Positions 40,093 to 58,199 of a stretch of 64,000 bases of DNA are shown in pieces; position 1 is the first letter of the stretch; every line of letters starts with the position of its first letter. This DNA is from Clostridium sardiniense (GTDB lineage: Bacteria > Bacillota > Clostridia > Clostridiales > Clostridiaceae), in assembly GCF_016907995.1 (NCBI RefSeq), contig NZ_JAFBDA010000003.1:1-64000 (forward strand). The letters are read 5' to 3'. The translations under genes and the position numbers were made by a program. The notes beneath the pieces were generated by a model. That model was not told the origin of the DNA. It saw only the letters and a program-made list of their open reading frames with translations, and searched no databases.

Positions 40093-40121
40093 TTTATTAC
40101 ACCTACCCCTTTATTTAATTT

Positions 40122-40991
40122 TTAAGCGAAATATTTATTATATATTTCTTTAGTTTTAATCTTCATTTCTTCTGTTGGTTCTTTCATAGGTTGTCTGCAA
40201 TATCCTGCATCTACACCTGCTTCTTGAAGAAGTCCTTTTAATGTTTGATATAACCCATTTCCTAAAAGATCAGTTATAAAATCATTAGTTAAGTGCTGAA
40301 TTTCTCTTGCTTTATCTATTTGGTTATCTTTTGTTAAATTAAATATTTCTTTAGCTCTCTTTCCATTCATGTTAAATGTTGATCCAATTGCTCCATCAAC
40401 TCCAAGAACTGTAGCTGGTAACATCATTTCATCAAAACCTGCATATATAAGCTTATCTGGGAATGTTTTTCTCATTCTCTCTAATAAATAGAAATCTGCT
40501 GCTGTAAATTTAACACCTATTATCTTCTCATTTTCAAATAGCTCTGCAAATTGTTCTAATGACATATTAACTCCAGTTAAGAATGGAATTGAATAAATGA
40601 TCATCTTATTATCCACTGAATTTATTATTGTTTCGTAATAATGCTTTATTTCATTAAAATCAAACTTATAGTAGAATGGTGTAACTGCTGATAATGAATC
40701 ATATCCAAGCTCCGTTGCAAACTTTGCAAGTTCTACTGCTTCTTTTAAGTTTACTGACCCTACTTGAGCTATTAATTTAACTTGTCCTTTTGCTTCATCC
40801 ATTGCAATTTCAAATATTCTTTTCTTTTCATCAGTTGAAAGCATAAAGTTTTCACCAGTACTTCCACCAACATAAAGACCATCTACACCACATACATCAA
40901 TATTATGTCTTACTATTTCCCTTAAACCTTTTTCATTAATATTTCCTTCTTTATCAAATGAAACTAATAATGCTGAATAAATTCCTTTCAT
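40122..40991 (-). CDS. nanA: N-acetylneuraminate lyase
   Basis: A 289-residue class I aldolase of the DHDPS/NAL family that splits sialic acid into N-acetylmannosamine and pyruvate. Seen: GIYSALLVSFDKEGNINEKG, GLYVGGSTGENFMLS (sialate carboxylate site), VTPFYYKF with the catalytic Tyr region, MIIYSIPFLTG, and the Schiff-base lysine in IIGVKFTAADFYLLERM. The GSTGEN and Phe/Tyr pattern favour NanA over DapA. It is the first gene of the operon, about 180 bases downstream of the predicted start point, with AGGAGGAAAAG before the ATG. Confidence 0.94.
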   Translation of the reverse strand: MKGIYSALLVSFDKEGNINEKGLREIVRHNIDVCGVDGLYVGGSTGENFMLSTDEKKRIFEIAMDEAKGQVKLIAQVGSVNLKEAVELAKFATELGYDSLSAVTPFYYKFDFNEIKHYYETIINSVDNKMIIYSIPFLTGVNMSLEQFAELFENEKIIGVKFTAADFYLLERMRKTFPDKLIYAGFDEMMLPATVLGVDGAIGSTFNMNGKRAKEIFNLTKDNQIDKAREIQHLTNDFITDLLGNGLYQTLKGLLQEAGVDAGYCRQPMKEPTEEMKIKTKEIYNKYFA

Positions 40992-41176
40992 TTCTTTTCC
41001 TCCTAAAAATATAAATCTTAATATATAAATTTTAAATAATAAACTTTGAATTTTTAATTTTAATAGATATTATCTTAGATTTTTTTCATTGGTAGGTTAA
41101 TTGTAATCGAAATTTTTTATGTCAGATTTATGAAAATTTAATTTTAATGTTAACATTTATTTACTTTTATACTTTT

Positions 41177-41233
41177 ATTATACACATTTAAACCTTTACT
41201 TCAATAATTATTTTCAAATTTGCGAAAATAATT
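41177..41233 (-). promoter_or_regulatory. nan operon promoter and upstream inverted repeat
   Basis: On the minus strand TTGAAG (41199-41204), 16 bases and perfect TATAAT (41177-41182) form a promoter. Immediately upstream, AATTATTTTC-N8-GAAAATAATT (41206-41233) is a perfect inverted repeat and a candidate RpiR operator. The leader to nanA is about 180 bases of AT-rich sequence with no gene. Confidence 0.65.
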
Positions 41234-41261
41234 TTTATTTTTGAAAATATTTTTTATATTA

Positions 41262-41324
41262 AGTAAAAATATTCTATATTATAGTAAAAATATTCTATAT
41301 TATAGTAAAGATATTCTATATATA
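41262..41324. repeat. Three 21-bp tandem repeats upstream of the nan promoter
   Basis: The unit AGTAAAAATATTCTATATT (19 of its 21 bases) occurs at 41262-41282 and 41283-41303 identically, and at 41304-41324 with a few changes. A weak fourth copy may precede it at about 41241-41261. The 21-base period is two helical turns. Confidence 0.9.
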
Positions 41325-41362
41325 TAAAAAGATAGTAAAAGATACTTATCCTTTTACTATCT
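41325..41362 (-). terminator. Terminator of the SDR gene
   Basis: Perfect 12-base arms AGATAGTAAAAG / CTTTTACTATCT, 9-base loop, then TTTTTATATA on the minus strand. It directly abuts the tandem repeat. Confidence 0.8.
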
Positions 41363-41393
41363 AAATTTTCATTTTGCTTAGTATTTTTATTTA

Positions 41394-42194
41394 TTATTTT
41401 CCAAATATTCTCATACTTTGTATTAAAGCACCTTGATATTTTGGTGCTACATATCTATTTTTTGGTTTAACATCCTCTACAGCTTTTATATATTTTTCTA
41501 TAATCGAATCATAACTTGAGGCTTCCATTAAATTAAATGCTTTCTCTTCACTGGCTTTAATTTCTTTAACTTTATCTTTAAAGTATGACTCTTCTCTCAT
41601 CCAATCATACTTTTTTTCTATATTCCTTTGATTAAAACCAGTTGCATATGCTCCTGGCTCTATAAGTACTATATCTATATTACAATCTTTAAGAACTTTC
41701 ATTTCTTCTCTAAATGAGTCCACAATGCCCTCTAGTGCAAATTTAGTAGCTGTATATGGTGATAAAAATGGAAATGATACTCTTCCAAATAATGATGATA
41801 TAAATATAACTCTTCCTTCCCTTTTTGGAATAACTTTACATAAGAATAATTGTGTCAATTCTATTGTAGAAAATACATTTGTCTCAAAAGTTTTTCTATA
41901 TCTATCTATATCAATTTCGCATACTGCTCCTGAATCTCCTATAGCCGCATTATTTATTAAAATATCTAAATCATATTCTAATATTTTTTTTTGGTCTTCA
42001 TCTAATAATATATCTAATTTAAACGCTTTCAAATTAACATCCAATCCATTTTCAATAGCATATTTGTTTATACATTTTGCTTCATCTTCATAATGTGTTG
42101 TTGCAAGAACAAAATGTCCTCTCTTAGCAAGTTCTATAGACGCCTCTTTCCCAAGTCCTGTCCCGGCTCCTGTAATTAATATTCTTTTACTCAT
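41394..42194 (-). CDS. Short-chain dehydrogenase/reductase
   Basis: A 266-residue classical SDR. The NAD(P) motif is ITGAGTGLGKEASIELAKRG, the structural motif NNAAIG, the catalytic Ser in IFISSLFGRVSF and the YxxxK pair in SPYTATKFALEG. The 'GPG'-like IEPGAYATGF follows. No substrate can be given from sequence; the long C-terminal part (KVKEIKASEEKAFNLME) is seen in reductases of unknown lipid or ketone substrates. Monocistronic. Confidence 0.9.
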   Translation of the reverse strand: MSKRILITGAGTGLGKEASIELAKRGHFVLATTHYEDEAKCINKYAIENGLDVNLKAFKLDILLDEDQKKILEYDLDILINNAAIGDSGAVCEIDIDRYRKTFETNVFSTIELTQLFLCKVIPKREGRVIFISSLFGRVSFPFLSPYTATKFALEGIVDSFREEMKVLKDCNIDIVLIEPGAYATGFNQRNIEKKYDWMREESYFKDKVKEIKASEEKAFNLMEASSYDSIIEKYIKAVEDVKPKNRYVAPKYQGALIQSMRIFGK

Positions 42195-42301
42195 TAAATC
42201 ACCTTGAATTCATAAAATTATTTATTATTATTCTTTCATTTATAAAAAATAATAATCATCTTTATCCTTTAAATAATTAATAATAAATATATTTATGCTA
42301 T

Positions 42302-42342
42302 AAAAAAGCTAACCTTTAGCTTCCTATAGCTTCAGGTTAGCT
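42302..42342 (-). terminator. Terminator of the two-component system genes
   Basis: AGCTAACCT / AGGTTAGCT stem, then TTTTTT on the minus strand, shortly past the histidine kinase stop. Confidence 0.8.
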
Positions 42343-42361
42343 CCTTATTAATTAATATAAA

Positions 42362-43372
42362 TTATTTAAAACTAGTATTCTCTCCTATTGGAAAAATTAT
42401 ATTTACCTTAGTGCCTTTATCCTTTTCTGATTTTAAGGTTAATCCTAGACCTAACTTATCACATAGCTTTTGACATAGATACAATCCAATTCCAGTTGAT
42501 TTACCAAATATCCTTCCGTTTTCTCCTGTAAATCCTTTTAAGAATACCTTCGAAAGTTCTGCATCTGGTATGCCTACACCACTATCCTCTATAGTTAATA
42601 TAATTTTATTTTTATAAGCTTCTGAGTAAATTTTAATCATTCCACCACTATTAGTATATTTTAATGCATTTCCTACAATCTGATTTATTATAAATTCTAC
42701 CCATTTAATATCACTAAGAACTAATTCATTTATTTCTCCCATATCTACAGCAATTCTTTTGCCTATAAAATCTCTTGAGTTCCTTTTTACTACATTCATA
42801 ACAGCTTTCTTTAATGGGAATTCTCTTATTATATAGTCTTCATTAGCATCATCACTTTTAGAATAATATAAAACCTGTTCAACCATCTCATCAACCTTTT
42901 TAAGTTCTTTATTTATACTATTAGTTACTTCATTTTTATTATTTTCAATAATAAGCTTTGTTGATGCAATAGGTGTCTTTATTTCATGAACCCACATCTC
43001 TATATAGTCTCTATATTCTTTTTGAGCATACTTATAAGAATTTATATGCTCATACATATCTTTATTAGATTCTCTTAATGCATCATGAATTATTTTCCCC
43101 TCAAGAAATTCTGGACTTTTTACTATTTCTGTTAGTAAAAATTTTTTATCAAGTTTCTCTGATATTTCACTTATTTCATTAAAAAATTTCCGCTTCCTTA
43201 AAAATTCTATTACTATGTAAGATATAAGTGGCGCAAACCATAAGGTAAATACTATAGTAATTACTGCACCACCTATTTTTATTAAAATCATAAATAACGT
43301 AAACAAAAGGAATAAGCCTAAGTTTACTATTAAAAATACACTTTTATCTTTAATATAATCTACAAATCTCAT
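42362..43372 (-). CDS. Intramembrane-sensing histidine kinase (BceS-type)
   Basis: A 336-residue kinase with two closely spaced membrane segments (about 12-32 and 36-56) and almost no extracellular loop, the mark of intramembrane-sensing kinases that depend on a Bce-type ABC transporter. The H box is WVHEIKTPIASTKL, the N box NQIVGNALKYTN, and the ATP-binding G boxes DSGVGIPD and STGIGLYLCQKL. Its ATG overlaps the response regulator stop (ATGA). The adjacent BceAB-like transporter gives strong context. Confidence 0.92.
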   Translation of the reverse strand: MRFVDYIKDKSVFLIVNLGLFLLFTLFMILIKIGGAVITIVFTLWFAPLISYIVIEFLRKRKFFNEISEISEKLDKKFLLTEIVKSPEFLEGKIIHDALRESNKDMYEHINSYKYAQKEYRDYIEMWVHEIKTPIASTKLIIENNKNEVTNSINKELKKVDEMVEQVLYYSKSDDANEDYIIREFPLKKAVMNVVKRNSRDFIGKRIAVDMGEINELVLSDIKWVEFIINQIVGNALKYTNSGGMIKIYSEAYKNKIILTIEDSGVGIPDAELSKVFLKGFTGENGRIFGKSTGIGLYLCQKLCDKLGLGLTLKSEKDKGTKVNIIFPIGENTSFK

Positions 43373-44040
43373 GGCATTATATATCCAAGTCCTCTTCTAG
43401 TTTCTATTGCATTTTCTATACCTAGTTCTTGAAGCTTCTTTCTTATTCTAGTTACATTAACTGAAAGAGTATTATCATCAACATAGTAATCTGAATTCCA
43501 TAAATATTCCATCAAGTCTTCCCTACTTACTATCTCACCTTTTCTCTCTATTAAATAAGAAAGAATTCTCATTTCATTTTTAGTTATCTCTAAGGATTTT
43601 CCATCACATATAACTACTCCCTTTGATAAATCTAATTCAAAATTTTTATATGTAAGTTTACTTGTACTTTCTTTATTTCCGTAAGTTCTTCTAAGTAATG
43701 CCTCTATACGTGCTAATAGAATCTGAGTATTATATGGCTTAATTACAAAGTCATCTGCACCAATATTCATACTCATAAGTTCATCCATATCACTATCTCT
43801 ACTAGTCACAATTATTATAGGTACACTAGATTTTTTTCTAATTTCTCTACAAATATGATAACCATCAAAATAAGGCAAATTTATATCTAGCATTATTAAA
43901 TCTGGTTTTGACTTCACTATCTCTTCAATTATATTTTCAAAATCTGTAGGTGCTTTAATATTATATCCATATTTAGAAAGAAGCTTTGTTAATTCTTCTC
44001 TTATAATTTCACTATCTTCAACAATAGTAATATTAAACAT
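43369..44040 (-). CDS. OmpR-family response regulator (BceR-type)
   Basis: A 223-residue regulator: receiver domain with acidic pocket (VEDSE), phosphoacceptor Asp in LIMLDINLPYFDG (about residue 52), Thr in PIIIVTSRDSD and Lys in ADDFVIKPYN; then a winged-helix domain with LEITKNEMRILSYLIERKGEIVSREDLMEYLW and the recognition helix NTLSVNVTRIRKKL. It pairs with the kinase that overlaps it. Likely target is the ABC transporter operon just upstream. Confidence 0.93.
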   Translation of the reverse strand: MFNITIVEDSEIIREELTKLLSKYGYNIKAPTDFENIIEEIVKSKPDLIMLDINLPYFDGYHICREIRKKSSVPIIIVTSRDSDMDELMSMNIGADDFVIKPYNTQILLARIEALLRRTYGNKESTSKLTYKNFELDLSKGVVICDGKSLEITKNEMRILSYLIERKGEIVSREDLMEYLWNSDYYVDDNTLSVNVTRIRKKLQELGIENAIETRRGLGYIMP

Positions 44041-44102
44041 AATACCCCTCCTCTTTATCTTCTTATTTTATATTATATACCATATTATCATTTATATATA
44101 AC

Positions 44103-44141
44103 ATAAAATAAGCTTAGGCTATGATGAGGCTAAGCTTATTT
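44103..44141. terminator. Terminator between Bce-type ABC and two-component genes
   Basis: Perfect 12-base arms AAATAAGCTTAG / CTAAGCTTATTT with a 12-base loop after the permease stop. It separates the transporter transcript from the regulator transcript, allowing different levels. Confidence 0.75.
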
Positions 44142-44175
44142 AGAATCGAGTTTTTTTTCTAACTATATTTTTAAA

Positions 44176-46167
44176 TTAAGATTTCTTAACTATATTCTTG
44201 TATCCAATATAAGTAGCTATGAAATAAGCTCCATATATTATAATTATTCCACCCATTGTTAGAAGAGCTGCTTCTACTATACTACTCTTTCCAAACACTG
44301 ATATAAAATCATTTGCTACGCTAATACCAACTACTGAATGAACTATTGCTAAAACTAGTGGTAGCATAAAGTATGCTAATGTTTGAATAAATATTGATTT
44401 ATTGATCATACTATTTGGTGCTCCAATTCTTCTTAAAGAATTATATCTCTCCGCACTATCACTTGCTTCTGATAATTGTTGAAGTGCTAATATAGCTGCA
44501 CTTGATATTAGGAATATAACGCCTATATATAAAGCAATATATAAAATCATTGTAGTCATAGAATCCATTGATTCTTGTATTAATATTCTTGTACCCATCA
44601 TTAAGTATCCATCATCTACATTTGGATTTTTCATATAACTAGTAGCAAAATCAGAGTAATATTTTTCTGATGCTTCTTTATTATCTTTTCCATAATTAAT
44701 ATCTAAAATATATTCATTGGCATTTAATCCTTTTACAAAATTATCAGGAACTATTAGATTAAATATTACCTGTGATGCCACATTAGTTGAATTTGTTTTA
44801 GTTATTATTTCTTTATTTGCTATAACATATTCTTTTCCGTCTAATTTAATTTTATTATTACTTTTTATTAAACCTTCTACTGCAGACTTTAAAATATCCA
44901 AACTAGATTGAACTAAAACTTCATTATCATTAAGTTTCATTGCGCTCTGTCCGCTTAATTTTCTAAGCTTATTAAAGTCTGATAGAGTCATTACAGATAC
45001 CGGAGTATTACTTAAGTTATTTGCTAAATTTGAATTTGTATACTTGTCTAATATATCACTAATTGGGTCATTTGTATTGTATGTTGTTACATACTCATAA
45101 TTGTCCCCATTTTGTATCTTAAAATTACGTTTCTCTAAGATTTGTTCTAAGTTTAACTTTGAATTTTTATCCGCATATACACTTACTGATGCATCATATG
45201 GAGCTAATGAATCTACATTATTTTTTTTAAAACTAACTCCAACTGAAAGCATACTTATAGTTAAAAATAACATTAAGCATATAACTGTCATTGATATAAA
45301 ATTAGTGTTTATTTTACTATTCATTTGCCTTAAAGTAAATATGTTTAGCTTTTTTAAATATAAGTTCTTATTTTTTTGTATTACTATTATTAAGAAGCTT
45401 GTAAGTCCATAGAAAAATAATCCTGTTCCAATTATGCCTAGTACAATTGATAATTTAAATTCCATAGTCCTAAAGTCTAGTCCAACTTTTTTAACTAAGT
45501 AATATGCAACGCCTAATGAAACTAATGATACAATAAAAATTATCCCTGATATTATAGGATTTTTTATTTTTATTTCTTGATTTTTCTTATGTGCATTTAA
45601 TAAATCTATTAACTTATACCTTGAAATAGTAAATGTATTAAATATCATTACAAGAACAAATATAATTCCAAAGTATATTATTGTTTTAATCATAGCTTCT
45701 GATGAAAATACGAATTTATAATTAGATAATCCTATTGAGAATAGCTTAGCTGTTATTACCGATAATCCTTGTGAAGCTATTACACCAACAATTAAACCTG
45801 CAATAAGTGAAAATATCCCAATAATTAATTCTTCACAAACTAATAATTTTGATATCTTACCTTTCCCCATCCCAAGGGACATATATAGTCCAAGCTCTTT
45901 TTTTCTTCTTTTTATCAAGAAGTTATTTGCATATATAATAAGTCCACCTAATATAAATGAAACAAATACTGATATATAAGATATTACTTGTGATATTGCC
46001 TGTATAGATTCTTTTTTACTTGAATTAATCTCCATCATTGCACTTTGTGATCCTATAGAGTTAAAAGCATAGAATATACATACAGCAAATGTTAAAGTTA
46101 AAAAGTATATTGTATAGTCTTTAAAACTCTTCTTAACATTACTAAGTGCTAATTTAGTTTGATTCAT
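44176..46167 (-). CDS. Bce-type ABC transporter permease
   Basis: A 663-residue permease with ten predicted membrane segments and a large extracellular domain of about 200 residues between segments 7 and 8 (residues ~320-530, from VSVYADKNSKLN to YMKNPNV), the defining layout of BceB/VraG proteins that sense and remove bacitracin or lantibiotics from lipid II cycle intermediates. Two FtsX-like halves are visible. The start at 46167 has GGAGGTGAAGCAA before it and overlaps the ATPase gene by 14 bases; eleven further upstream codons have no such site. Confidence 0.9.
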   Translation of the reverse strand: MNQTKLALSNVKKSFKDYTIYFLTLTFAVCIFYAFNSIGSQSAMMEINSSKKESIQAISQVISYISVFVSFILGGLIIYANNFLIKRRKKELGLYMSLGMGKGKISKLLVCEELIIGIFSLIAGLIVGVIASQGLSVITAKLFSIGLSNYKFVFSSEAMIKTIIYFGIIFVLVMIFNTFTISRYKLIDLLNAHKKNQEIKIKNPIISGIIFIVSLVSLGVAYYLVKKVGLDFRTMEFKLSIVLGIIGTGLFFYGLTSFLIIVIQKNKNLYLKKLNIFTLRQMNSKINTNFISMTVICLMLFLTISMLSVGVSFKKNNVDSLAPYDASVSVYADKNSKLNLEQILEKRNFKIQNGDNYEYVTTYNTNDPISDILDKYTNSNLANNLSNTPVSVMTLSDFNKLRKLSGQSAMKLNDNEVLVQSSLDILKSAVEGLIKSNNKIKLDGKEYVIANKEIITKTNSTNVASQVIFNLIVPDNFVKGLNANEYILDINYGKDNKEASEKYYSDFATSYMKNPNVDDGYLMMGTRILIQESMDSMTTMILYIALYIGVIFLISSAAILALQQLSEASDSAERYNSLRRIGAPNSMINKSIFIQTLAYFMLPLVLAIVHSVVGISVANDFISVFGKSSIVEAALLTMGGIIIIYGAYFIATYIGYKNIVKKS

Positions 46168-46921
46168 TTGCTTCACCTCCAAGAAGCGTAACAACTTCAA
46201 TTATTCTATCAAAGAATTCTTTTCTAGACATTTTACCCTTTATTAATTCGTTGAATATCTTACCATCTTTTATAAATAGGATTCTTTCGGCATAACTTGC
46301 AGTGAATGGATCATGAGTAACCATAAGTATTGTAGCTTGTAAATCTTTATTCATGCTTTCAAAACTTTCTAAAAGTTGTCTAGCCGACTTTGAATCTAAT
46401 GCACCTGTTGGTTCATCTGCTAGAATTATTGAAGGGTCAGTTACTATTGCTCTTGCAGATGCAACTCTTTGCTTTTGTCCACCTGATACTTGGTATGGGT
46501 ACTTATTTAAAAGTTCATCTATTCCTAGTCTTTTAGATATATCTTTAACTAAAGTATCTATTTCTTTTGCTTTTCTATTTTGAATCGTAAGTGCTAGTGC
46601 TATATTTTCATAAATAGTTAAAGTATCTAGAAGATTATAGTCTTGGAATATAAACCCTAACTCATCTCTTCTAAACTTCTCTAAACTTTTCCCTTTAAGC
46701 TTTGTTATATCTTTTCCTTTTAATAATATCTTTCCTGTTGTTACATTATCTATTGTTGAAATACAATTTAAAAGTGTGGATTTACCACTTCCTGACGCTC
46801 CCATTATTCCAACAAATTCACCTTTTTCAACATCAAAGCTTATTCCATCTATAGCTTTTGTTACATTATCTTTATTTCCATAATATTTTTCTATATTTTT
46901 AACTTCTAATATATTACTCAT
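46154..46921 (-). CDS. Bce-type ABC transporter ATPase
   Basis: A 255-residue ABC ATPase of the MacB/LolD/BceA group. Walker A is [10 protein letters not shown]-loop [13 protein letters not shown], signature [15 protein letters not shown], Walker [13 protein letters not shown] and the switch His in [13 protein letters not shown]. It powers the overlapping permease gene. The gene has a GGAGG site and begins the operon after a 330-base regulatory region. Confidence 0.95.
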
Positions 46922-47256
46922 TTTATTTCCTCCTAATTCTCGTAAACTATGATTTCATTTTACAGTTTAATTTCCAATATTCATATTGAATTATATTTCA
47001 ACAATCTTTCAATTTTGTAAGATAAAATATAGGATATTGTAATTTTGAATTTATACAACCCTATAAAACAATATTATTGAGCATATTTTGTTCAACTAGT
47101 TAAAATTTACTCTATCTTACAATATTCATTAATATATAGCGAGTATTTTACTTGTAAACTTTTAGAAAATAAGTTATTTAATTTATCATTTTATATATTT
47201 ACATATGTATAATTTTACTATACATATATAAACATATCTTTAATGAGGTGATAATA
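46922..47256. promoter_or_regulatory. Divergent regulatory region, ABC operon and pyruvate kinase-like gene
   Basis: No gene seen. It must hold promoters for both directions. TTGTAAGATA at 47015-47024 and its complement TATCTTACAA at 47113-47122 form a 10-base inverted pair 88 bases apart and could be regulator sites. I could not identify a clear BceR box. The rest is AT-rich. Confidence 0.4.
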
Positions 47257-48669
47257 ATGCAAAAGACAAAAATGATTGTTACTCTAGGTTCATCTAGTAA
47301 TAATAAAGATACTATACGAGAACTTATTAAGAATGGAATGAACGTAGCTAGAATAAACTTCTTTCATAGCTCATATGAGGAAATAAAATCTCTAGTTAGA
47401 ATTTTAAATGAATTAGATAATGAACTAGGCACAACAACAGCAATACTTGGAGATATAAGAGATTCTAAGATAAGAACTAATAAATTCTTATCTAAAACTG
47501 TAAAACTTAATGCTAATGATTACTTCTCATTTCTTTGTGGCAGTGAAATCTTAGGTGATAATACTAGATGTTCAATAAGCAGCTCCTATCTTCATGAAAA
47601 TTTAAATATAGGAGATAAATTATATATAGATAATGGACTTATTTCTTTTGAAGTTGTAGAAATCTTAGGAAGAGAAATAAAATGTTTAATAACAGATGGT
47701 GGCGTAATATCAGAAAATAAACAAATAAATATACCTAAGTTTAAGAACCCTTCAATAATAACAGAATTGATGGAAAAGGATATTGAATTTGCTTGTAAGA
47801 TTGGAATGAACTTTATATCATGTTCTGCTGTTAGAACAGGCGCTGATTGTTTAAAATATCGTGATATGGTTATTGGATATGGTGGACCAAATACAAAGCT
47901 TATTTGCGAAATCGAAAATAGTGATGCTGTAGATAATATAGATTATATTTTAAATTCATGTTATGGAATTATAATATCAAGAGGTGAACTTGGAATAGAT
48001 ATTCCTGTGGAGAAAATTCCATTCATCCAAAAGGACTTAATAAAAAGGTGTAATAAATTAAATAAAATAGTCATTGTATCCACCCAAGTTTTAAGTTCAA
48101 TGGATACTTTTCCAAGACCTACAAGAGCAGAATCTAGTGATGTTTTCAATGCCGTGTTAGATGGTACTACTGCGTTAATGCTTACACGTACTACAGCTAT
48201 CGGTAACTATCCATTAGATACATTAAAAACATTAAAAAGGCTTCTAAAAGATAGTGAAAAACACTTAGATTATAAGAAATATTTCAAAATATTTTCTAAT
48301 GATATAATACTAGATTATGACAGCTTAATGGCATCTTCAGTTGCTGAGGTATCAAATAAATTTCCAACAAAAGCTATAATAGTTGGAACTTCTAATGGTG
48401 TGCTTCCAAGAAGTATATCTAAATATAGGCCTGATGCACCAATTATAGCTATTACAGATAACCAAGATGTAGCAAAGAGCCTTTCTCTTAACTTTGGGGT
48501 AACTCCTTTTATTTATGATAAGTTTGATAGCCCTGAAGAATTCATGGAAGAAGCAAGAAACATAGCTTTAAATAATGGTCTTGCTAAGAAATATGATACT
48601 ATATTAGTTCTTACAGCTAATAAGACTTTTTCTTGGAAAAATGATAATTTTAAGATTGTAAATCTCTAA
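47257..48669 (+). CDS. Pyruvate kinase-like protein with altered active site
   Basis: A 470-residue protein that aligns with pyruvate kinase from end to end (KTKMIVTLG, NVARINF, ENKQINIPK, TQVLSSMDTFPRPTRAESSDVFNAVLDGT, C-terminal SISKYRPDAPIIAIT). Key positions differ: the catalytic Lys of KIEN is Glu218 (CEIEN), the metal Asp of RGDLG is Glu244, the potassium-ligand Ser of NFSH is Phe36, and DTKGPEIR reads DIRDSKIR, with Thr to Ile67 and Glu to Lys71. MLSGESAKG reads MLTRTTAIG. Arg32, Asn34, Asp66, Glu220 and Thr276 remain. It is probably not a normal pyruvate kinase. AGGTG precedes the ATG. Confidence 0.85.
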   Translation: MQKTKMIVTLGSSSNNKDTIRELIKNGMNVARINFFHSSYEEIKSLVRILNELDNELGTTTAILGDIRDSKIRTNKFLSKTVKLNANDYFSFLCGSEILGDNTRCSISSSYLHENLNIGDKLYIDNGLISFEVVEILGREIKCLITDGGVISENKQINIPKFKNPSIITELMEKDIEFACKIGMNFISCSAVRTGADCLKYRDMVIGYGGPNTKLICEIENSDAVDNIDYILNSCYGIIISRGELGIDIPVEKIPFIQKDLIKRCNKLNKIVIVSTQVLSSMDTFPRPTRAESSDVFNAVLDGTTALMLTRTTAIGNYPLDTLKTLKRLLKDSEKHLDYKKYFKIFSNDIILDYDSLMASSVAEVSNKFPTKAIIVGTSNGVLPRSISKYRPDAPIIAITDNQDVAKSLSLNFGVTPFIYDKFDSPEEFMEEARNIALNNGLAKKYDTILVLTANKTFSWKNDNFKIVNL

Positions 48670-48690
48670 CTTATAGATAAAGATAATTAT

Positions 48691-48734
48691 AATAAACAAA
48701 AAGAATCCTAAATTTAGGATTCTTTTTGTTTATT
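48691..48734. terminator. Bidirectional terminator, 44-bp perfect palindrome
   Basis: Perfect palindrome with inner GAATCCTAAATTTAGGATTC and T/A-rich outer arms between convergent genes. The stop codon of the thioesterase gene lies in its right arm. Confidence 0.88.
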
Positions 48735-49149
48735 ATGCTTTAAATATTTCAGTAAACTTAGTCCATATATCTTCATTATTTCTTTTTAAATTTACTATTT
48801 TGAATTCATTACTATCTACAAATGTTTGAAGTGTATTACCTGTAGCTAAAATAGTATTATCATTTTTTCTTCTAACGACATACTCTATTCTAACCTTTAC
48901 TGGCGTTAACTCACTAATAGAAGATTCAACAACTAAGTCATCATCATACTTAGCAGCTTCTATGTATTTACAATGAGTTTCTATAAGAGGCATCATAATC
49001 CCCTTATCTTCTAAATCTTTATAAGAAATCCCTGATTCTCTTATTAAATCCTCTCTTGCTACTTCAAAATATATATAATAATTAGCATGATGGACTACTG
49101 CCATTGCATCTGTCTCTGCGTATCTAACTTTAATATCAGTAAAACTCAT
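48733..49149 (-). CDS. Acyl-CoA thioesterase, 4HBT/YbgC type
   Basis: A 138-residue hot-dog-fold thioesterase. The catalytic Asp is in YAETDAMAVVHHANYYIYFEVARED, the YbgC/4HBT signature; IETHCKYIEAAKYDDDLVVES and VRIEYVVRRKNDNTILATG are the following strands. It hydrolyses short or medium acyl-CoA esters; the natural substrate is unknown. Monocistronic, with AAGAGGTATAATG as start context. Confidence 0.9.
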   Translation of the reverse strand: MSFTDIKVRYAETDAMAVVHHANYYIYFEVAREDLIRESGISYKDLEDKGIMMPLIETHCKYIEAAKYDDDLVVESSISELTPVKVRIEYVVRRKNDNTILATGNTLQTFVDSNEFKIVNLKRNNEDIWTKFTEIFKA

Positions 49150-49235
49150 TCATTATACCTCTTTTCTTAAATGTACTAGATTATGCTTTATTTTAACATA
49201 AAATTGACCACTTAAACTTATAATATTATTAATAT

Positions 49236-49931
49236 CTATATAGAGTCCTTAGATATAATTTCTCCATCTTTTAATAATACTATGTGAGTTCCATATTCAG
49301 CTGACTCTTTTGAATGAGTAACGTTAACTATAGACATTCCTCTTTCTCTATTTATTCTTTGAAATAATTTCATTATTTCTGTTCCAGTCTTTGAATCTAA
49401 ATTTCCTATCGGTTCATCTGCTAGAATTATTTCTGGCTTGTTTATTAGTGCTCTCGCTATAGCAACCCTTTGTTGCTGACCTCCTGATAATTCCCTTGGA
49501 GTAACTTTTCTCTTGTGTGAAAGTTCTATTATATCTAGTATTTCTTCTAAATCCTTTTTATGGTCTTTTAATCTTCCACCATCTAATGTTATTGGTAATA
49601 ATATATTATCCTCAACAGAAAGATTCTGAACTAAATTATAAAACTGAAATACAAAGCCTAGCTCTCTTCTTCTAAGCTTACTCATATCTTTATCATTAAG
49701 TTTATGGATATTTTTATCATTTAGAAGAACTTCTCCTTTAGTTGGAGCATCTAGTCCTCCAATTAAGTATAGTAAAGTACTCTTACCACAACCTGATGGT
49801 CCCATTATAGATACAAACTCGCCCTTTTTTATATCTAAAGACACATCTTTTAATATATCCACTTTTTCATTACCTACTTTAAAACTTTTCCACAAATTTT
49901 TAACCTCAATTATATTATCCATATCATCCAA
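49236..49931 (-). CDS. ABC transporter ATPase (MacB/LolD-like)
   Basis: A 231-residue ABC ATPase. Walker A GPSGCGKST, Q-loop FVFQFYNLVQNLS, signature LSGGQQQRVAIARAL, Walker B IILADEPIGNLD, and switch His in NVTHSKESAEYG. It closely resembles the ATPase at 46154-46921 but belongs to a separate unit with the large FtsX-type permease encoded nine bases upstream. There is no two-component system at this locus. Confidence 0.95.
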   Translation of the reverse strand: MDDMDNIIEVKNLWKSFKVGNEKVDILKDVSLDIKKGEFVSIMGPSGCGKSTLLYLIGGLDAPTKGEVLLNDKNIHKLNDKDMSKLRRRELGFVFQFYNLVQNLSVEDNILLPITLDGGRLKDHKKDLEEILDIIELSHKRKVTPRELSGGQQQRVAIARALINKPEIILADEPIGNLDSKTGTEIMKLFQRINRERGMSIVNVTHSKESAEYGTHIVLLKDGEIISKDSI

Positions 49932-49940
49932 ACCCTCTTT

Positions 49941-52454
49941 TTACTCATATTTTATTTCATCAACAACTGATATTTTAGATGCCTTCAATACGGGTGCAAG
50001 TGATGCAACTAACATAAGAACTATTCCAAATATAGTTAGCCCTATTAGCCTTTTTTCTGGAATACTTATCTTTAAATATGCATCTAAAGCTAATGATACC
50101 TCAGGTATAAATCTACACACTAAAATCCCAGTAAATACTCCTAAAATACTTCCGAATATTCCAATTGTTGCACCTTCTATAAATATCATTCTGCTCCTTT
50201 GTCCCTTACTCATTCCAATTGAAGTTAGTACTGCAAGTTCTTTTCTCCTTTGCATGAAGCTTACCATTAAATTATTTACTATCCCTAAAGCTCCAATAAT
50301 TAATGCCATTATGGAAAAGCTTTCTAATGAACTCATGAGTCCTGCATTATTTGCAAGTTCACTCTCTTTCATCTCTTCTTTTGTTTTTATAGCTACTCCA
50401 TATTCATCCAAATCATTATTTAAGTCATTTTTAAGTTCATTTTCTGATATATCTTTCCCCTTAACTAAAATGCTACTTGGAATATTTCTATTAAAATCTT
50501 CCTTAAAATTCTTTTCACTTATTAAACAGTTTCTCTTATTTGCACTTATTGGTGATGATAAGAAACCTGCTATTTCATATTCGTGTAATTTATCATCAAT
50601 ATTTAATTCTATCTTATCACCAGTTTTTAACTTATATTTTTTCTTATATATATCAGCTAATATAATTTTCTTTCCACTATCTAGTTTATCTAATATCTTC
50701 TTATTATTTTCTGATGAGTCATTAAGTATTTCCTCACCTCCAAAATACTCTGAGTATTTTGAAGTATTAATTCCTTGAAGTACTCCTATATTCATATCCT
50801 TATCTTTTATCTTTACATTATGTTCTACATAACTATTTGAATAATCATCTATATCTTTACCTTTTAGATCCTTTAAATTTGCAAGAACCTCATCATAATT
50901 AAGCTTTGTAATATTTGAAATAGATACCTCATAATTTTCTCCATCATATGAGTTTGTAATTAAGTTTTTTACACTATATGAAGCTACATATATAGCAGTA
51001 ACAGCCGCAAGTGCAGAACATATTAAAACACCATTATTTATTAAGCTTTTTGATGTGGCCATATTTTCTAAGGCTAGAACCCCAATATTTCCAAATATTA
51101 ATCTATAAATCCCCCTTAATACTTTTGATAAAATTTTAAATATAAGTGGAATCATCATAACAGAACCAATTAATACAAAAAATGCGCAAGCCATACTAAG
51201 TATAAAATTACCTGTATCTTCAAACTTGCTTATATATATGAATGGAGCTATTATTAAAACAATTCCTATTATCCAAAATGATGGGTGTATCTTTCCTCCA
51301 CTTGAATATTCTCCAAGTATAATTTCTTTTACTGAAAATCTTGATACTCCAAGTATAGGTATTATAGAACTTATTAAACAAAGTATAATAGCAATTATAT
51401 ATGCTATTATTAGATTTTTAATGTCAAAATTTACTGTTGTACTTACTCCATAATCTTTAAACTGATTGGAGCCATCACTTAGAAGATATAGCATTGGAAA
51501 TCCAAGTCCTGTTCCAACTATACAACCAACTATTCCATAAAATAAACTTTCTAAAAGTATGAGTCCGTCTGTCTCCTTTTTAGTAGCACCAATACTTCTA
51601 AAAGTCCCTATTACTGCCATTCTTTCAATTATTATAACTTTAAAAGATGAATATATGATAAATGCTGCCATTAACACCACAATTGCAAGCATTATATAAA
51701 ATGGTACAGTAAATTGACTAACCATACTATCTAAATCCTCTTTATTTAAAGTTTCTTTTATTGAATAATCTTTTAAGTCTGTTTTCTTTAAAGTCTCAAC
51801 ACTTTTATCTGACTTAACTAATGCTGATGTTATTTCTTCTTTTTTCCCTAAAAGCTTTGATAATCCATTATTGCTCATTATTATCGTCATTTCTCCAGGC
51901 TTCTCTGTAAAAAAGCCTGATGGAACTGCAACATCAGAAACTTTAAGAGTTATATTCTTTCCTTCACTTTTTATCTTAAAAGAGTCTCCTACTTTTAAAT
52001 CTAAATCTTTAGAGACCTGCTCTGAGATTATTACTTCATTTCCATTCAATTCCTTAATCTTATCTTCTTTTCCATCTTTAAATACTATCGGATTTATTTT
52101 TTGAAGATTTTCTATATTTTCTCCAGCTATTATCTCTGCTCTTAATGATTTATCTCCCTCTTTAAATAATCCACTTCCATTGAATATATATGCTTTCTCT
52201 TCGCCCTCTAAATTTTTATTTAAAATATCTTTATCTAAAAATGGATTATTTGAACTCTCCTTTTGAGCTATTATAATATTTGCATCTCCAAATTCAGCCT
52301 TATTTTTCTCTGTAACCATATTTTTAAAGTTATCAGATGTACCAAAAGATGCAAAGGTCATCGCAGTTGTAATTCCTACCGCTAAAATTATAAGTAAGCT
52401 CCTAAGCTTCTTTTCCCACATATTTTTAAATAAATACGTGAATAATATTCTCAT
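49941..52454 (-). CDS. FtsX-family ABC transporter permease
   Basis: An 837-residue permease with an N-terminal membrane segment, a MacB-like extracellular domain (about 40-245), three membrane segments (about 250-370) making an FtsX domain, further central segments, a second exterior domain (about 490-690), and a second FtsX domain at the C terminus ending AISKASKISVVDEIKYE-like 'LAPVLKASKISVVDEI'. This is the duplicated layout of LolE/YknZ-like exporters of peptides or lipids in Gram-positives. The partner ATPase follows directly. Confidence 0.9.
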   Translation of the reverse strand: MRILFTYLFKNMWEKKLRSLLIILAVGITTAMTFASFGTSDNFKNMVTEKNKAEFGDANIIIAQKESSNNPFLDKDILNKNLEGEEKAYIFNGSGLFKEGDKSLRAEIIAGENIENLQKINPIVFKDGKEDKIKELNGNEVIISEQVSKDLDLKVGDSFKIKSEGKNITLKVSDVAVPSGFFTEKPGEMTIIMSNNGLSKLLGKKEEITSALVKSDKSVETLKKTDLKDYSIKETLNKEDLDSMVSQFTVPFYIMLAIVVLMAAFIIYSSFKVIIIERMAVIGTFRSIGATKKETDGLILLESLFYGIVGCIVGTGLGFPMLYLLSDGSNQFKDYGVSTTVNFDIKNLIIAYIIAIILCLISSIIPILGVSRFSVKEIILGEYSSGGKIHPSFWIIGIVLIIAPFIYISKFEDTGNFILSMACAFFVLIGSVMMIPLIFKILSKVLRGIYRLIFGNIGVLALENMATSKSLINNGVLICSALAAVTAIYVASYSVKNLITNSYDGENYEVSISNITKLNYDEVLANLKDLKGKDIDDYSNSYVEHNVKIKDKDMNIGVLQGINTSKYSEYFGGEEILNDSSENNKKILDKLDSGKKIILADIYKKKYKLKTGDKIELNIDDKLHEYEIAGFLSSPISANKRNCLISEKNFKEDFNRNIPSSILVKGKDISENELKNDLNNDLDEYGVAIKTKEEMKESELANNAGLMSSLESFSIMALIIGALGIVNNLMVSFMQRRKELAVLTSIGMSKGQRSRMIFIEGATIGIFGSILGVFTGILVCRFIPEVSLALDAYLKISIPEKRLIGLTIFGIVLMLVASLAPVLKASKISVVDEIKYE

Positions 52455-52662
52455 TAGTTCTCACCCCTCATGTACTAAATTTTAATTTTTTACCATTGTC
52501 TTTATTATAACATCATATAAATGAAGAATAATTAATACATTTGTTTTTTTATATATAAATTTCTATTATGTTAATAGTTGTTTAATTTTAAGTGCTTATT
52601 AACTACTCCATAAATTAAAATATTATAATTTATCTATAGAATTTTATGGGAGTGATTTAATT

Positions 52663-53313
52663 ATGAAAAGAGATAATAATTTAATTGATGTATATATAGA
52701 GTATGATAAAGATGCTACAGTTCCTAAGTATGAAACTTCACTAGCTGCAGGTGCTGATCTTTTCGCTGCTACTGATATGGTTATACTACCATTTGAAAGA
52801 GTTGCTATTCCTCTAAATATTAAATTTGCTATTCCAGATGATATGGAAATTCAAATAAGAGCTAGAAGTGGACTTTCACTTAGAACAGATCTTAAAATTT
52901 CTAACTCTATAGGTACAATTGACGCAGATTCTATAGATAATATTTCAGTTATACTTGAAAATGAATATAATATATCAAGTTTGCCTTATCAAATAGCAAA
53001 TGATCCATCAATACTTACTGATCTAAAAGAAAACTATACACAAATTAAACTTAAGGATTACTTAATTTCTAAAGGAGAAAGTGTATTTGCCTTTGAGGAA
53101 TATGATAAATCTTTTAGGAAACTACTAAAGAACTATATTTATATAGATAAAAATGGTAATCCTTATGGAAGTATCTATATAAAAAAAGGAAATAGAATTG
53201 CACAAATGGTTTTAGCTCATTATTATAAAGCTAATTTTATTAAAACGGATGATGTAAGTAAGATAAAAAAAGGTGTAAATAGAGGTGGTGGCTTTGGTCA
53301 CACTGGTTTCTAA
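52663..53313 (+). CDS. dUTPase-family protein with insertion and altered motif 3
   Basis: A 216-residue trimeric dUTPase-fold protein. Motifs 1 (AAGADLFA), 2 (RARSGLSLRTDL), 4 (GNRIAQMVL) and 5 (RGGGFGHTG) are present. Motif 3 reads GTIDADSIDNI: the catalytic Asp87 is kept, but the Tyr that stacks on deoxyribose and excludes ribose is Ser90. About 65 extra residues (101-168) separate motifs 3 and 4, compared with about 15-20 in standard enzymes of ~145 residues. It could still be a dUTPase, or act on another nucleotide. GGGAG precedes the ATG. Confidence 0.8.
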   Translation: MKRDNNLIDVYIEYDKDATVPKYETSLAAGADLFAATDMVILPFERVAIPLNIKFAIPDDMEIQIRARSGLSLRTDLKISNSIGTIDADSIDNISVILENEYNISSLPYQIANDPSILTDLKENYTQIKLKDYLISKGESVFAFEEYDKSFRKLLKNYIYIDKNGNPYGSIYIKKGNRIAQMVLAHYYKANFIKTDDVSKIKKGVNRGGGFGHTGF

Positions 53314-53489
53314 TCATAAATCATTTTATTGGTAAGCACTTGTTACTTTTAGAAACTATATAATAAAATTAAGAGTCTAATATCTATATTCAACGCTTTC
53401 TATTTTTCACTAAAATTTTTATTGGAATCTTGTGTCAATTAAAAATCATTACATTACATGACATAATTTAAATATAAAAAAATCTAATA

Positions 53490-53547
53490 AAAAAAGAGCA
53501 TCTGGCTTAATTAAGATATACTTAAGTAGGCAAGATGTTCTTTTTTT
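53490..53547. terminator. Bidirectional terminator
   Basis: GAGCATCT / AGATGTTC outer stem with an inner CTTAA/TTAAG stem, flanked by AAAAAA and TTTTTTT, between the dUTPase-like gene and a convergent small gene. Confidence 0.75.
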
Positions 53548-53576
53548 ATTTATATAAATTTTTTGATTAAGCTAAT

Positions 53577-53699
53577 TTATTTGTTTAACTTTTCATTCTC
53601 TTTAACTTTGTTTGCCATTTTTTCTTGTTCTTTTCTTACTTCAGCTAGTTTTTCTTCACCAGTTTTTCTAACTACCTCATCATATCTCTTTTGTCCCAT
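53577..53699 (-). CDS. 40-residue charged helical protein
   Basis: A 40-residue reading frame not previously obvious by length: it starts MGQKRYDEVVRKTGEEK, is rich in Lys and Glu with regular heptads, and ends NEKLNK. AAAGGGG lies nine bases before the ATG, and a strong terminator follows 30 bases after the stop, so it has all signals of a real gene. I predict one amphipathic helix, no membrane segment. Function and family are unknown to me. A plus-strand frame over the same bases is Phe/Ser-rich and is not coding. Confidence 0.65.
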   Translation of the reverse strand: MGQKRYDEVVRKTGEEKLAEVRKEQEKMANKVKENEKLNK

Positions 53700-53966
53700 A
53701 ATTCTCATCCCCTTTATAATAACCTGTCCAAATCTTGTCTTAATATTAACATCTATTTCCTAAAGGGTAAACCAACATATTCTTTATATTCATTCAAATT
53801 TATACAAATTAATTCATTTTAATTAAATGAAAAGAAATAATATATACCTTACTCCTATTTTCTATAATATTCTTTTATTTATTAGTAATTTTTATATCTT
53901 TAACACATCGTTTAATTTAGTTACAATTTAAATAATTATTGCTTTATTTATAATTTATTACATTAA
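53700..53966. other. Intergenic, nothing recognised
   Basis: AT-rich sequence that must include the promoter of the 40-residue gene. I see no gene, repeat or RNA structure. Confidence 0.6.
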
Positions 53967-54013
53967 AATATCCTAGCCAAGAGCTGTTATAAACTTCTCA
54001 AAACTAGGATATT
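53967..54013 (-). terminator. Terminator of the alpha-glucoside operon
   Basis: Perfect 10-base arms AATATCCTAG / CTAGGATATT with a partly paired loop, 16 bases past the EEP-type gene stop; the T-tract is weak. Confidence 0.6.
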
Positions 54014-54028
54014 CTTATATTTATTGTA

Positions 54029-54826
54029 TTAAGGATTGTCAATTAATACTTCTAATCCATAATGATCAGAAATTATCTTCTTATTTATATCATTAAATAT
54101 AACCTTACTTTCTAAAATATTCATTGATTTATTAGTAAATATTATATCTACTCTTACTTCATCTGTATTATCATCCCATCCATCTATCTTTCCTTTAACA
54201 GTTACTCCTGAATCTCTAAATTTAGCTAAATCATACGTATCTACTAATCCCTTGCTTTTAATAAAGTCATACCCTTCATCTCTTATTAAAGCATTGTTAT
54301 TAAAATCACCCATTAAAATTGAACTATCCTTGCCTTCTTTAATCCTATTATATAATTCATTTACTTGATTCTTAAAATCTTCATCTTCATCATTCCACCA
54401 ACCTAGATGACATGAATAAAAATCTATATTTTTATTGTTAAGTCTTATTACCGCCTTAACTATTTTTCTTGACTTCCAAAAATCTATACACTTATTTTTA
54501 GTTATATAAAAACTTTCACTTTTAAGAATCTCATGTCTTGTTAAAATTGCTAACCCCTCTTCGTACTTTCCATATCCAATATGTGAAAAATCCCATACTA
54601 AATTATAATTATCTCCTCCAAGTTTATTTATCTCCTCTATTAGAATCATAGCATAGTTATCTTCTCGTATATTATCGTATACTATATTTGAATCTATGCT
54701 TTGATTCACTTCTTGAAGTGCTATAACATCATATTTTTTATTCTTTATTACTTTAGCTAAATATTTTATTTTTTCATTTTGGTTCTCTTCTTGCCATGAG
54801 TGGCAATTTAATGTAAGTAATTTCAT
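54029..54826 (-). CDS. Endonuclease/exonuclease/phosphatase-family protein
   Basis: A 265-residue EEP-fold hydrolase. Metal and catalytic residues: LTLNCHSWQEENQ (Asn), VIALQEVNQS (metal Glu), FYSCHLGWWNDE (His), SILMGDFNNNAL (Asp and Asn), and ISDHYGLEVLI (catalytic Asp-His). Such proteins cut phosphodiesters of nucleic acids, lipids or inositol phosphates. It follows the PTS gene by seven bases, so it is part of the alpha-glucoside operon; a sugar-phosphate or phosphodiester substrate is possible but not shown. No signal peptide. Confidence 0.88.
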   Translation of the reverse strand: MKLLTLNCHSWQEENQNEKIKYLAKVIKNKKYDVIALQEVNQSIDSNIVYDNIREDNYAMILIEEINKLGGDNYNLVWDFSHIGYGKYEEGLAILTRHEILKSESFYITKNKCIDFWKSRKIVKAVIRLNNKNIDFYSCHLGWWNDEDEDFKNQVNELYNRIKEGKDSSILMGDFNNNALIRDEGYDFIKSKGLVDTYDLAKFRDSGVTVKGKIDGWDDNTDEVRVDIIFTNKSMNILESKVIFNDINKKIISDHYGLEVLIDNP

Positions 54827-54833
54827 ATTTTAT

Positions 54834-56495
54834 TTAAACTCCTAAAATATCTTGTACATTAGATTTTAATATATCTGCTTTAGGTCCATATATAGCTTGT
54901 ACCCCTTTATCTTTTAAAATAAGTCCTATTGCACCATTTGATTTCCATGACTTTTCATCACCAACTAAACTTATATCTTTTACTGTAACACGAAGACGAG
55001 TCATGCAAGCATCCACATCTACTATATTATCTTTTCCACCAAGTAATGCAATTGCTTCCCTTGCAATATCATCATTTACTGCACCTGAATTACTATTACT
55101 ACTATCTTTTTCACCTTCTGAATCTTCACTGTCAATATAATTTCCTGCACGTCCTGGAGTAGCTATATTAAATTTCTTTATTAATACACTCATTATTCCA
55201 AAGTTTGCAAAGAAGAATACTACGGCTACTATTATGAAATTTATTAAATCCCCAACTATCCCTGCATTGATCATAAGTGGAACACGAGTTATTAGTTCTA
55301 TAAACCCAAAAGCATGAACTCTTAAATTTAGTATATCAGCTAATGCAAATCCTATACCTGTTAGAACTGCATAAACTCCATAAAGAATTGGTGATACAAA
55401 CATAAACATAAACTCTAAAGGCTCTGTTACCCCTGTTAAAAATACTGCTATTGCAGCAGAGAAAAATACTGTCTTATATTTTTTCTTCTTATCCGGATCA
55501 ACATTTCTATACATTGCAAATGCTACCCCTATTAGTGAAGCACTTGATAATATTACTTGTCCAGCCTTAAAACGTGCTGGTGTAATACTCGTTAAAAGAT
55601 TATTATAAGCTGTCATATCCCCAGCTTGTTTAAAATTATTTAAATCAGTTATCCATGCAAGCCATAATGGATCTTGTCCTGCAACTATAGATCCAGCAGT
55701 AGGTCCAGTTAACATATGATATACACCGCCAAGTTCTGTATAATTTATAGGAACCGTTAACATATGATGTAATCCAAATGGTAATAGTAAACGTTCTAAC
55801 ATCCCATATAAAAATGGTGCAATTACTGGTGCTGTATCTTTTGATGTTGCAAGCCATTGTCCAAATGAATTTAATCCATATTGTATAAATGGCCATACAA
55901 AAGCTAATATTAATGCAGTAACTATTGAACCTGCTATAACTGCAAAAGGAACAAAACGTTTACCGTTAAAGAACGCTAAAGAGTTAGGTAATTTGTTGTA
56001 ATTATAATACTTATTATATAAAACTGCCCCTAAGAAACCTGAAATAATACCAATAAATACTCCCATATTTAGAGCTGGTGCTCCAAGTACTGATATAAAA
56101 TAATCTTTAGCTAATAATTGCTGTCCTGTAAATGACTGTACCATATCAGTTGATGTCTTAGCTAACATCTCTGTTGTAACTCCAAAGATTACTCCTGTTA
56201 TTCTATTAGTTAATATGAAAGCTAGCGCCCCTGCAAATGCTCCCCCTGCACGTTCCTTAGCCCATGAACCACCAATAGCCACTGCAAATAATAAATTCAT
56301 GTTATTGATTATTGCCCAACCTATATCCTCCATGACTTTTGCGCAAGTTTTTATGAAATCTACATCTACATATATTCCTATAACTTTACCTATTGAAATC
56401 ATAAGTCCAGCTGCAGGCATAACCGCAACCACTACTAGCAATGCCTTACCAAACTTTTGCCAAAAATCAAATGAACCTAATTTAAATTTCTTCAT
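54834..56495 (-). CDS. PTS alpha-glucoside-type EIICB
   Basis: A 553-residue PTS permease of the glucose family. The EIIC part (about 1-440) has ten or so membrane segments with family blocks AKVMEDIGWAIINNMNLLFAVAIG, GMLERLLLPFGLHHMLTVP and FLTGVTEPLEFMFMFVSP. A Ser/Glu-rich linker (450-475) leads to EIIB with phospho-Cys in VDVDACMTRLRVTVKD. There is no EIIA domain, so EIIA-Glc must come from elsewhere. The glucosidase gene directly upstream and LacI gene suggest maltose, isomaltose, trehalose or a related alpha-glucoside. Confidence 0.92.
   Translation of the reverse strand: MKKFKLGSFDFWQKFGKALLVVVAVMPAAGLMISIGKVIGIYVDVDFIKTCAKVMEDIGWAIINNMNLLFAVAIGGSWAKERAGGAFAGALAFILTNRITGVIFGVTTEMLAKTSTDMVQSFTGQQLLAKDYFISVLGAPALNMGVFIGIISGFLGAVLYNKYYNYNKLPNSLAFFNGKRFVPFAVIAGSIVTALILAFVWPFIQYGLNSFGQWLATSKDTAPVIAPFLYGMLERLLLPFGLHHMLTVPINYTELGGVYHMLTGPTAGSIVAGQDPLWLAWITDLNNFKQAGDMTAYNNLLTSITPARFKAGQVILSSASLIGVAFAMYRNVDPDKKKKYKTVFFSAAIAVFLTGVTEPLEFMFMFVSPILYGVYAVLTGIGFALADILNLRVHAFGFIELITRVPLMINAGIVGDLINFIIVAVVFFFANFGIMSVLIKKFNIATPGRAGNYIDSEDSEGEKDSSNSNSGAVNDDIAREAIALLGGKDNIVDVDACMTRLRVTVKDISLVGDEKSWKSNGAIGLILKDKGVQAIYGPKADILKSNVQDILGV

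Positions 56496-56518: not shown

Positions 56519-58199
<1,681 letters not shown>

Follow-up and report, generated by a model that had tools for sequence, protein, structure and literature searches.

An intact pyruvate kinase paralogue of Clostridium without catalytic residues: a pseudo-pyruvate kinase under purifying selection, probably a regulatory or partner protein

Eukaryotic signalling has many familiar pseudoenzymes, whereas descriptions of them among the central glycolytic enzymes of bacteria are few. Among the open-licence papers listed by our literature searches we found no separate bacterial family of pseudo-pyruvate kinase paralogues and, judging by titles and abstracts, none that treats the protein described here. 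The Drosophila Pyk-like paralogues (Pykl) likewise are duplicated pyruvate kinase (PK) genes, but they are eukaryotic and mostly testis-restricted; one third of the fly carbohydrate-enzyme paralogues are predicted pseudoenzymes, and a Pykl1 paralogue is described (excerpts of PMC11836677). A naturally inactive bacterial PK is found in M. bovis, where the substitution Glu220->Asp alone makes PykA inactive; in contrast to the separate paralogue family described here, only one residue of that species' own pykA product is changed (excerpts of PMC3214197). The relatives nearest in the tree are the Clostridium PKs of the K+-independent type, which we label pykII and pykIII (these names, like pykI, are labels of this analysis). 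They share the three-domain fold, the length, Ile/Val67 and Lys71 with our protein, but all 26 of their rows keep Lys218, Asp244, Ser36, KGP and SGE, whereas the pseudo clade keeps none of them (residue numbering is that of P0001, the protein described below).

The gene lies in a 64,000-nucleotide stretch of a C. sardiniense contig, hereafter the window. Its features are as follows.

47246..47250, + strand: ribosome-binding site AGGTG, 6 nt 5' of the ATG at 47257 (sequence)
47257..48669, + strand: pseudo-pyruvate kinase CDS (P0001), 470 aa (translation of the ORF)
47362..47364, + strand: codon 36, K+-site Ser replaced by Phe (alignment)
47908..47910, + strand: codon 218, catalytic Lys replaced by Glu (alignment)
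47986..47988, + strand: codon 244, metal-binding Asp replaced by Glu (alignment)
48184..48192, + strand: codons 310-312, SGE of active enzymes replaced by TRT (alignment)
48689..48736, strand undefined: terminator-like hairpin between the pseudo-PK gene and a convergent thioesterase gene (scan and sequence)

The reading frame contains zero internal stops. P0001 scores 414.9 bits against the pyruvate kinase family TIGR01064, above the curated cut-off of 306.4, and both Pfam PK domains, barrel and C domain, are present, which places it in the family by fold and descent. The predicted PK fold is confident over the full length. The scan put the hairpin on the - strand, while its stem is symmetrical. 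Nothing in window 40000-56000 exceeded the Rfam gathering score, and an association with an RNA element was set aside. An anti-phage role was rejected, as no PADLOC family matched. Plasmid-borne origin was likewise rejected: tblastn against plasmids returned 164 records, all below 60% identity, and the 25 records listed are annotated as pyruvate kinase or unannotated. Viral contigs scanned with the clade protein P0012 contained no relative. Elsewhere in the window, a 216-aa dUTPase-like gene (52663-53313) is matched in two stretches by family models of 143-150 positions. A trehalose-hydrolase-like gene, named by context, consists of two adjacent ORFs of 210 and 342 aa (56519-58184); the pair matches one 552-aa ORF in locus L063, a possible disruption or sequencing error.

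The first-pass annotation had described a PK relative of full length in which both Lys218 and Asp244 are replaced by Glu, and the alignment bears this out; its letters Phe36, Ile67, Lys71, Glu218 and Glu244 are all correct. In P0001, Lys218 of the KIEN motif is Glu and KGP at 68-70 reads RDS. The catalytic Lys that characterises EC 2.7.1.40 is missing from P0001 and from every one of the 20 clade proteins (P0001 and the top 19 search matches, several near-identical entries among them), and is present in the remaining 120 of the 140 proteins compared (P0001 and 139 relatives from the best-scoring matches listed), a split that is not due to chance. Residue counts were taken over 18 pseudo rows (15 of the 20 clade proteins and three loci) and 32 active rows; the near-copies P0010, P0013, P0014, P0015 and P0017 were left out of these counts and of the tree. 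Of the metal-binding Glu/Asp pair of EC 2.7.1.40, Glu220 is found in 18/18 pseudo rows and Asp244 in 0/18, position 244 being E in 11, Q in 6 and A in 1. Position 218 is E in 7 rows, R in 6, N in 4 and V in 1, and never K. Losses beyond those first noticed concern Gly69, which is Asp in 18/18 rows, Pro70, and SGE at 310-312, which reads T(R/T/K/N)(T/S) in the clade. Together with Lys218, the residues Ser36, Asp244, Gly69-Pro70 and Glu312 are lost in 18/18 rows, and Arg32 in 6/18; Asp66, Gly243 and Thr276 vary among them. On the other side, Asn34, Arg73, Glu220, Arg242, Arg290 and Asp295 are kept in all 18 rows and Lys155 in 17. Three of these, Asn34, Arg73 and Lys155, presumably lie on the nucleotide side of the site.

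Across the whole protein, 150 positions are invariant in the active rows (at least 31 of 32). Forty-five of them carry the same residue, again invariant, in the pseudo rows, while 34 never bear the active residue there. Eleven of these are re-fixed, with one and the same new residue in all pseudo rows (D69, N126, Q156, I239, I254, V274, S280, T310, T313, L326, L330). The 12 positions of P0001 that we take as its active site are kept no better than the rest, 3/12 being fully kept versus 42/138 of the other formerly invariant positions. The clade thus consists of PK paralogues that are intact and folded but lack the catalytic residues, in line with the pseudoenzyme proposed at first: the fold is kept and the losses run across orthologues.

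P0001 is almost certainly devoid of PK activity; in M. bovis, a lone Glu220->Asp substitution is enough to abolish that of PykA (excerpts of PMC3214197). A weakly active PK in which the missing Lys is compensated in another way would agree with the full fold and with the retained Glu220, Arg242 and Asn34, but the substitution in M. bovis is milder than the losses of Lys218, Ser36, Gly69-Pro70 and Glu312 throughout the clade, making residual activity highly improbable. A further alternative is a new enzyme, in which the PK fold has been repurposed and Glu218 forms a new site with Glu220/Glu244. The re-fixed positions, the invariant Glu220 and Arg242 and the confident fold would all suit such a protein, and in the sardiniense group Glu244 might still bind metal, so that some chemistry there might persist. 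Position 218, however, is free to vary, which disfavours an enzyme based on this Glu: with E, R, N or V at 218, E, A or Q at 244, and variation at Asp66, Gly243 and Thr276 as well, the lineages have no common catalytic set. Glu218 was accordingly rejected as a conserved new catalytic residue, and we regard a new enzyme of this kind, one of the first-pass suggestions, as unlikely.

Homologues were sought among 5.8 billion proteins (best 120 of 1720 matches) and by a profile search with 14 clade members (best 120 of 1575 matches), both lists being scored from a capped set of candidates. The pseudo clade comprises 20 database proteins and additional loci from C. sardiniense, E. multiforme, C. baratii and further lineages; the named members among the matches listed belong to C. 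sardiniense, at 97% identity, and to C. baratii, at 56%. Clade proteins measure 469-489 aa, except one of 447. In the genus, 4 of 68 genomes have a match of at least 51%, namely the window's own genome (G000), G065, G024 and G029, and the frame is intact in all four. Matches of 44-45% in genus genomes sit outside the clade in the tree, and no member was added when 206 genomes from across the family were searched at E <= 1e-118, with at most seven candidates scored per genome. A PK gene fragment with stops in G033 (L142:3384-3695, contig C6) was rejected as a relic of the clade, being 69-70% identical to pykI/pykIII versus 38-55% to clade members. In the maximum-likelihood tree of 53 rows, three of them outgroup rows used in the tree only, the 18 pseudo rows form one clade (support 100/100) on a stem of length 0.99, sister to pykIII (support 100/99).

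The window's genome holds four PK genes, pykI, pykII, the pseudo-PK gene and a short 344-residue form, none of them pykIII. A canonical pyk elsewhere in the genome had been anticipated: pykI lies directly downstream of a 6-phosphofructokinase gene (pfkA, recognised from its N-terminal sequence), and pykII lies at a contig end. The outcome in which no other pyk exists, named in advance as evidence against a pseudoenzyme, thus did not occur, and glycolysis need not rest on the pseudo-PK. The short form (L004, G000:C10:22159-23145) also has the PK barrel but, unlike P0001, lacks the C domain and has Lys at the catalytic position; weak matches of its type occur in many genomes of the genus. In G065 and G018, pykIII comes after a gene for a transporter; the G065 protein was tested and passes the model of the PgtP family (TIGR00881, 423.9 > 407.75 bits). 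At L061:4509-7362 and L065:4405-7252, pykIII follows a response regulator, a histidine kinase, a DUF3919 protein, a solute-binding protein and a PgtP/GlpT-type transporter (families tested in L061), an order that suggests that this third, active-looking PK is dedicated to phosphoglycerate or PEP taken up from outside. A cluster of similar transporter genes occurs in G024, with no pyk behind it. In addition, a GlpT/PgtP-type transporter gene stands after canonical pykI in G000 (G000:C3:149592-152771, L137), as in G024 and G029, and is 48-49% identical to the pykIII-linked one.

At the K+ site, 23/23 pykII rows and 3/3 pykIII rows have Lys at position 71 and either Ile or Val at position 67; Lys71 and Ile67 occur together in 18/18 pseudo rows, as in pykII. 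K+-independent pyruvate kinases carry the signature Lys117 with non-Thr113 (excerpts of PMC8835810), and the Thr113 side chain takes no part in K+ binding (excerpts of PMC4284704). These positions correspond to 71 and 67 here, and P0001 carries the signature, its Lys71/Ile67 pattern agreeing with both reports. Ile67 and Lys71, which had been counted among the defects, are therefore no marks of lost function: they are the normal K+-independent pattern, common to active Clostridium pykII/pykIII.

The pseudo-PK is under purifying selection. By codon maximum likelihood, omega is 0.036 for G024-G029 and 0.048 for G000-G065, and omega = 1 is rejected in both (LRT 253 and 307, respectively); for the same pairs pykII gives 0.016 and 0.011 and pykI 0.075 and 0.100, so that the pseudo-PK lies above pykII but below pykI. 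With dS saturated in most pairs these values are rough, and in the third pair, G000-G029, saturation makes the ML omega meaningless. NG86 dN/dS is 0.20-0.41 for the pseudo-PK (six pairs, four genomes), 0.04-0.11 for pykII and 0.10-0.19 for pykI, and the neighbouring genes described below change about as fast (BceB 0.22-0.31, histidine kinase 0.18-0.27). Relative to pykII, pseudo-PK dN is 5.6x (G024-G029) and 2.4x (G000-G065). In the hand-chosen pairs compared, the barrel changes less than the C domain in pykII but not in the pseudo clade taken as a whole: the barrel (A) and C domain are changed at 31.0% and 26.0% of positions in three pseudo pairs, at 8.2% and 13.3% in two same-genome pykII pairs, and at 15.5% and 24.5% in four other pykII pairs (Fisher, C vs A, p = 0.0001 against all six pykII pairs; with only the two same-genome pairs as reference, p = 0.038 for C and p = 0.095 for B). 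Per pseudo pair the A/C values are 21/28%, 33/30% and 39/19%, one pair keeping the slower barrel. The B domain was rejected as specially conserved: it is 91% identical in one pair, but 46% changed in P0007-P0012.

These data bear on whether the gene is a slowly dying duplicate, its function already gone and its frame open by chance. Fast change on the stem, the patchy range within the genus and a clean loss would be expected of such a gene. The loss is seen in G018, the sister of G065, whose flanks align to those of G065 (94.6% over 241 bp and 95.9% over 145 bp) with only short chance-like matches between them; a gene remnant in G018 was therefore rejected, and the function of the pseudo-PK is dispensable, since this genome has lost it. 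On the other hand, the intact frames in four genomes, the near full length of the clade proteins, the rejection of omega = 1 and the re-fixed invariant positions all argue against decay, which we consider quite unlikely. The earlier view that the gene is not decaying agrees with the tests run, including the dN/dS check it called for; the scattered frameshifts that could have contradicted it are absent, but G018 has lost the gene whole.

Taken together, P0001 is best read as a bacterial pseudo-pyruvate kinase and, with somewhat better than even confidence, as a protein that keeps the PK architecture and has a regulatory or partner role. Judged from sequence, such a role is favoured to about the same degree over new chemistry. 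As the tree shows, a duplication in Clostridium gave rise to a further PK gene on the side of pykII/pykIII; the catalytic machinery was then lost, as the residues show, probably in a single event on the clade's stem. Since then, as frame and codon test show, the product has been kept intact under purifying selection as a folded, non-catalytic protein. It retains the presumed nucleotide-side residues Asn34, Arg73 and Lys155, with most PEP and metal ligands gone. Because the three-domain architecture and Arg290 and Asp295 are kept, a PK-like oligomer is probable, formed alone or with active Pyk; in our mapping these two residues correspond to SpPYK Arg320 and Asp325, which belong to the A-domain interface between protomers (excerpts of PMC10338316). 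The oligomer would act via ligand or partner binding. An active Pyk as the partner, in keeping with the regulator of true PK suggested in the first-pass annotation, is a tentative proposal. In the C domain, the phosphate-loop Thr residues of SpPYK are 407, 409 and 412 (excerpts of PMC10338316). Thr378 is kept in the clade, and Thr 409 and 412 map, by our alignment, to 380 and 383, where the clade has Asn/Asp and Leu/Met/Val; two of the three loop positions have thus lost their side chains, and this disfavours ordinary FBP sensing. PEP sensing in the old active site, another early suggestion, is unlikely too, because PEP-phosphate ligands are lost (Lys218 in all rows, Arg32 in a third).

Divergent to the pseudo-PK gene lies a BceRS-AB-type operon.

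42362..43372, - strand: short sensor histidine kinase of the operon (families)
43369..44040, - strand: response regulator of the operon (families)
44176..46200, - strand: BceB-type FtsX-like permease, likely ATG at 46167 (families)
46154..46921, - strand: BceA-type ABC ATPase, divergent neighbour in 4/4 carrier genomes (families, context)
47007..47020, strand undefined: weak BceR-box-like site with one mismatch, about 85 bp before bceA (pattern)

The arrangement of the pseudo-PK gene opposite BceA, BceB, response regulator and histidine kinase recurs in 4/4 carrier genomes, and the far-side neighbours differ. BceB matches of at least 62% occur in 5 of 68 genus genomes, the four carriers and G018; no other full-length BceB match exceeds 54%, and a partial match of 60% in G015 contains a stop. 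In G018 the operon and a LolD/FtsX pair beyond it are in place without the gene, which is thus no fixed part of the module. In the pykI part of the tree (six genomes), the five genomes with this BceB subfamily group apart from G074, and adjacency and co-occurrence can therefore be explained by ancestry. By eye, TTACA-N4-(T/C)GTAA stands at the same place near bceA in G065, G018, G024 and G029, and a BceR-like box is found near bceA in all five genomes, G018 included. A pattern scan with the BceR-box consensus that we assumed gave 6 matches across the window, including two between these divergent genes, versus 7.5 expected by chance, and the box was rejected as evidence of co-regulation.

The gene's location, together with a report on S. 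pneumoniae, suggests a tie to envelope stress: reduced PK activity raises fosfomycin resistance there, which the authors fit with more PEP for MurA (excerpts of PMC10338316). The pseudo-PK could then act as a brake: with glycolytic PK held back while the envelope is under stress, more PEP would be left for building the cell wall. The conserved adjacency despite changing far-side neighbours and the kept Arg290/Asp295 are consistent with this, but the genomes concerned are close relatives, so the adjacency may be inheritance only; moreover, G018 keeps the operon without the gene, and the scan for a shared regulatory site gave no excess over expectation. We consider the brake improbable, and slightly more so its explicit form, in which the non-catalytic subunit would join or compete with Pyk tetramers and throttle PEP use when the BceRS-AB-type system encounters envelope-active peptides. 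Both the control of active Pyk and the link to envelope stress are speculative.

Database sources name clade proteins P0002 and P0012 'pyruvate kinase', and metabolic models of these species may therefore count an enzyme that is almost certainly non-catalytic. If the favoured regulatory reading is true, the pseudo-PK would be a natural modulator of the PEP node. If it were in fact a Pyk-throttling subunit, glycolysis and envelope stress would be coupled through a pseudoenzyme in these bacteria.
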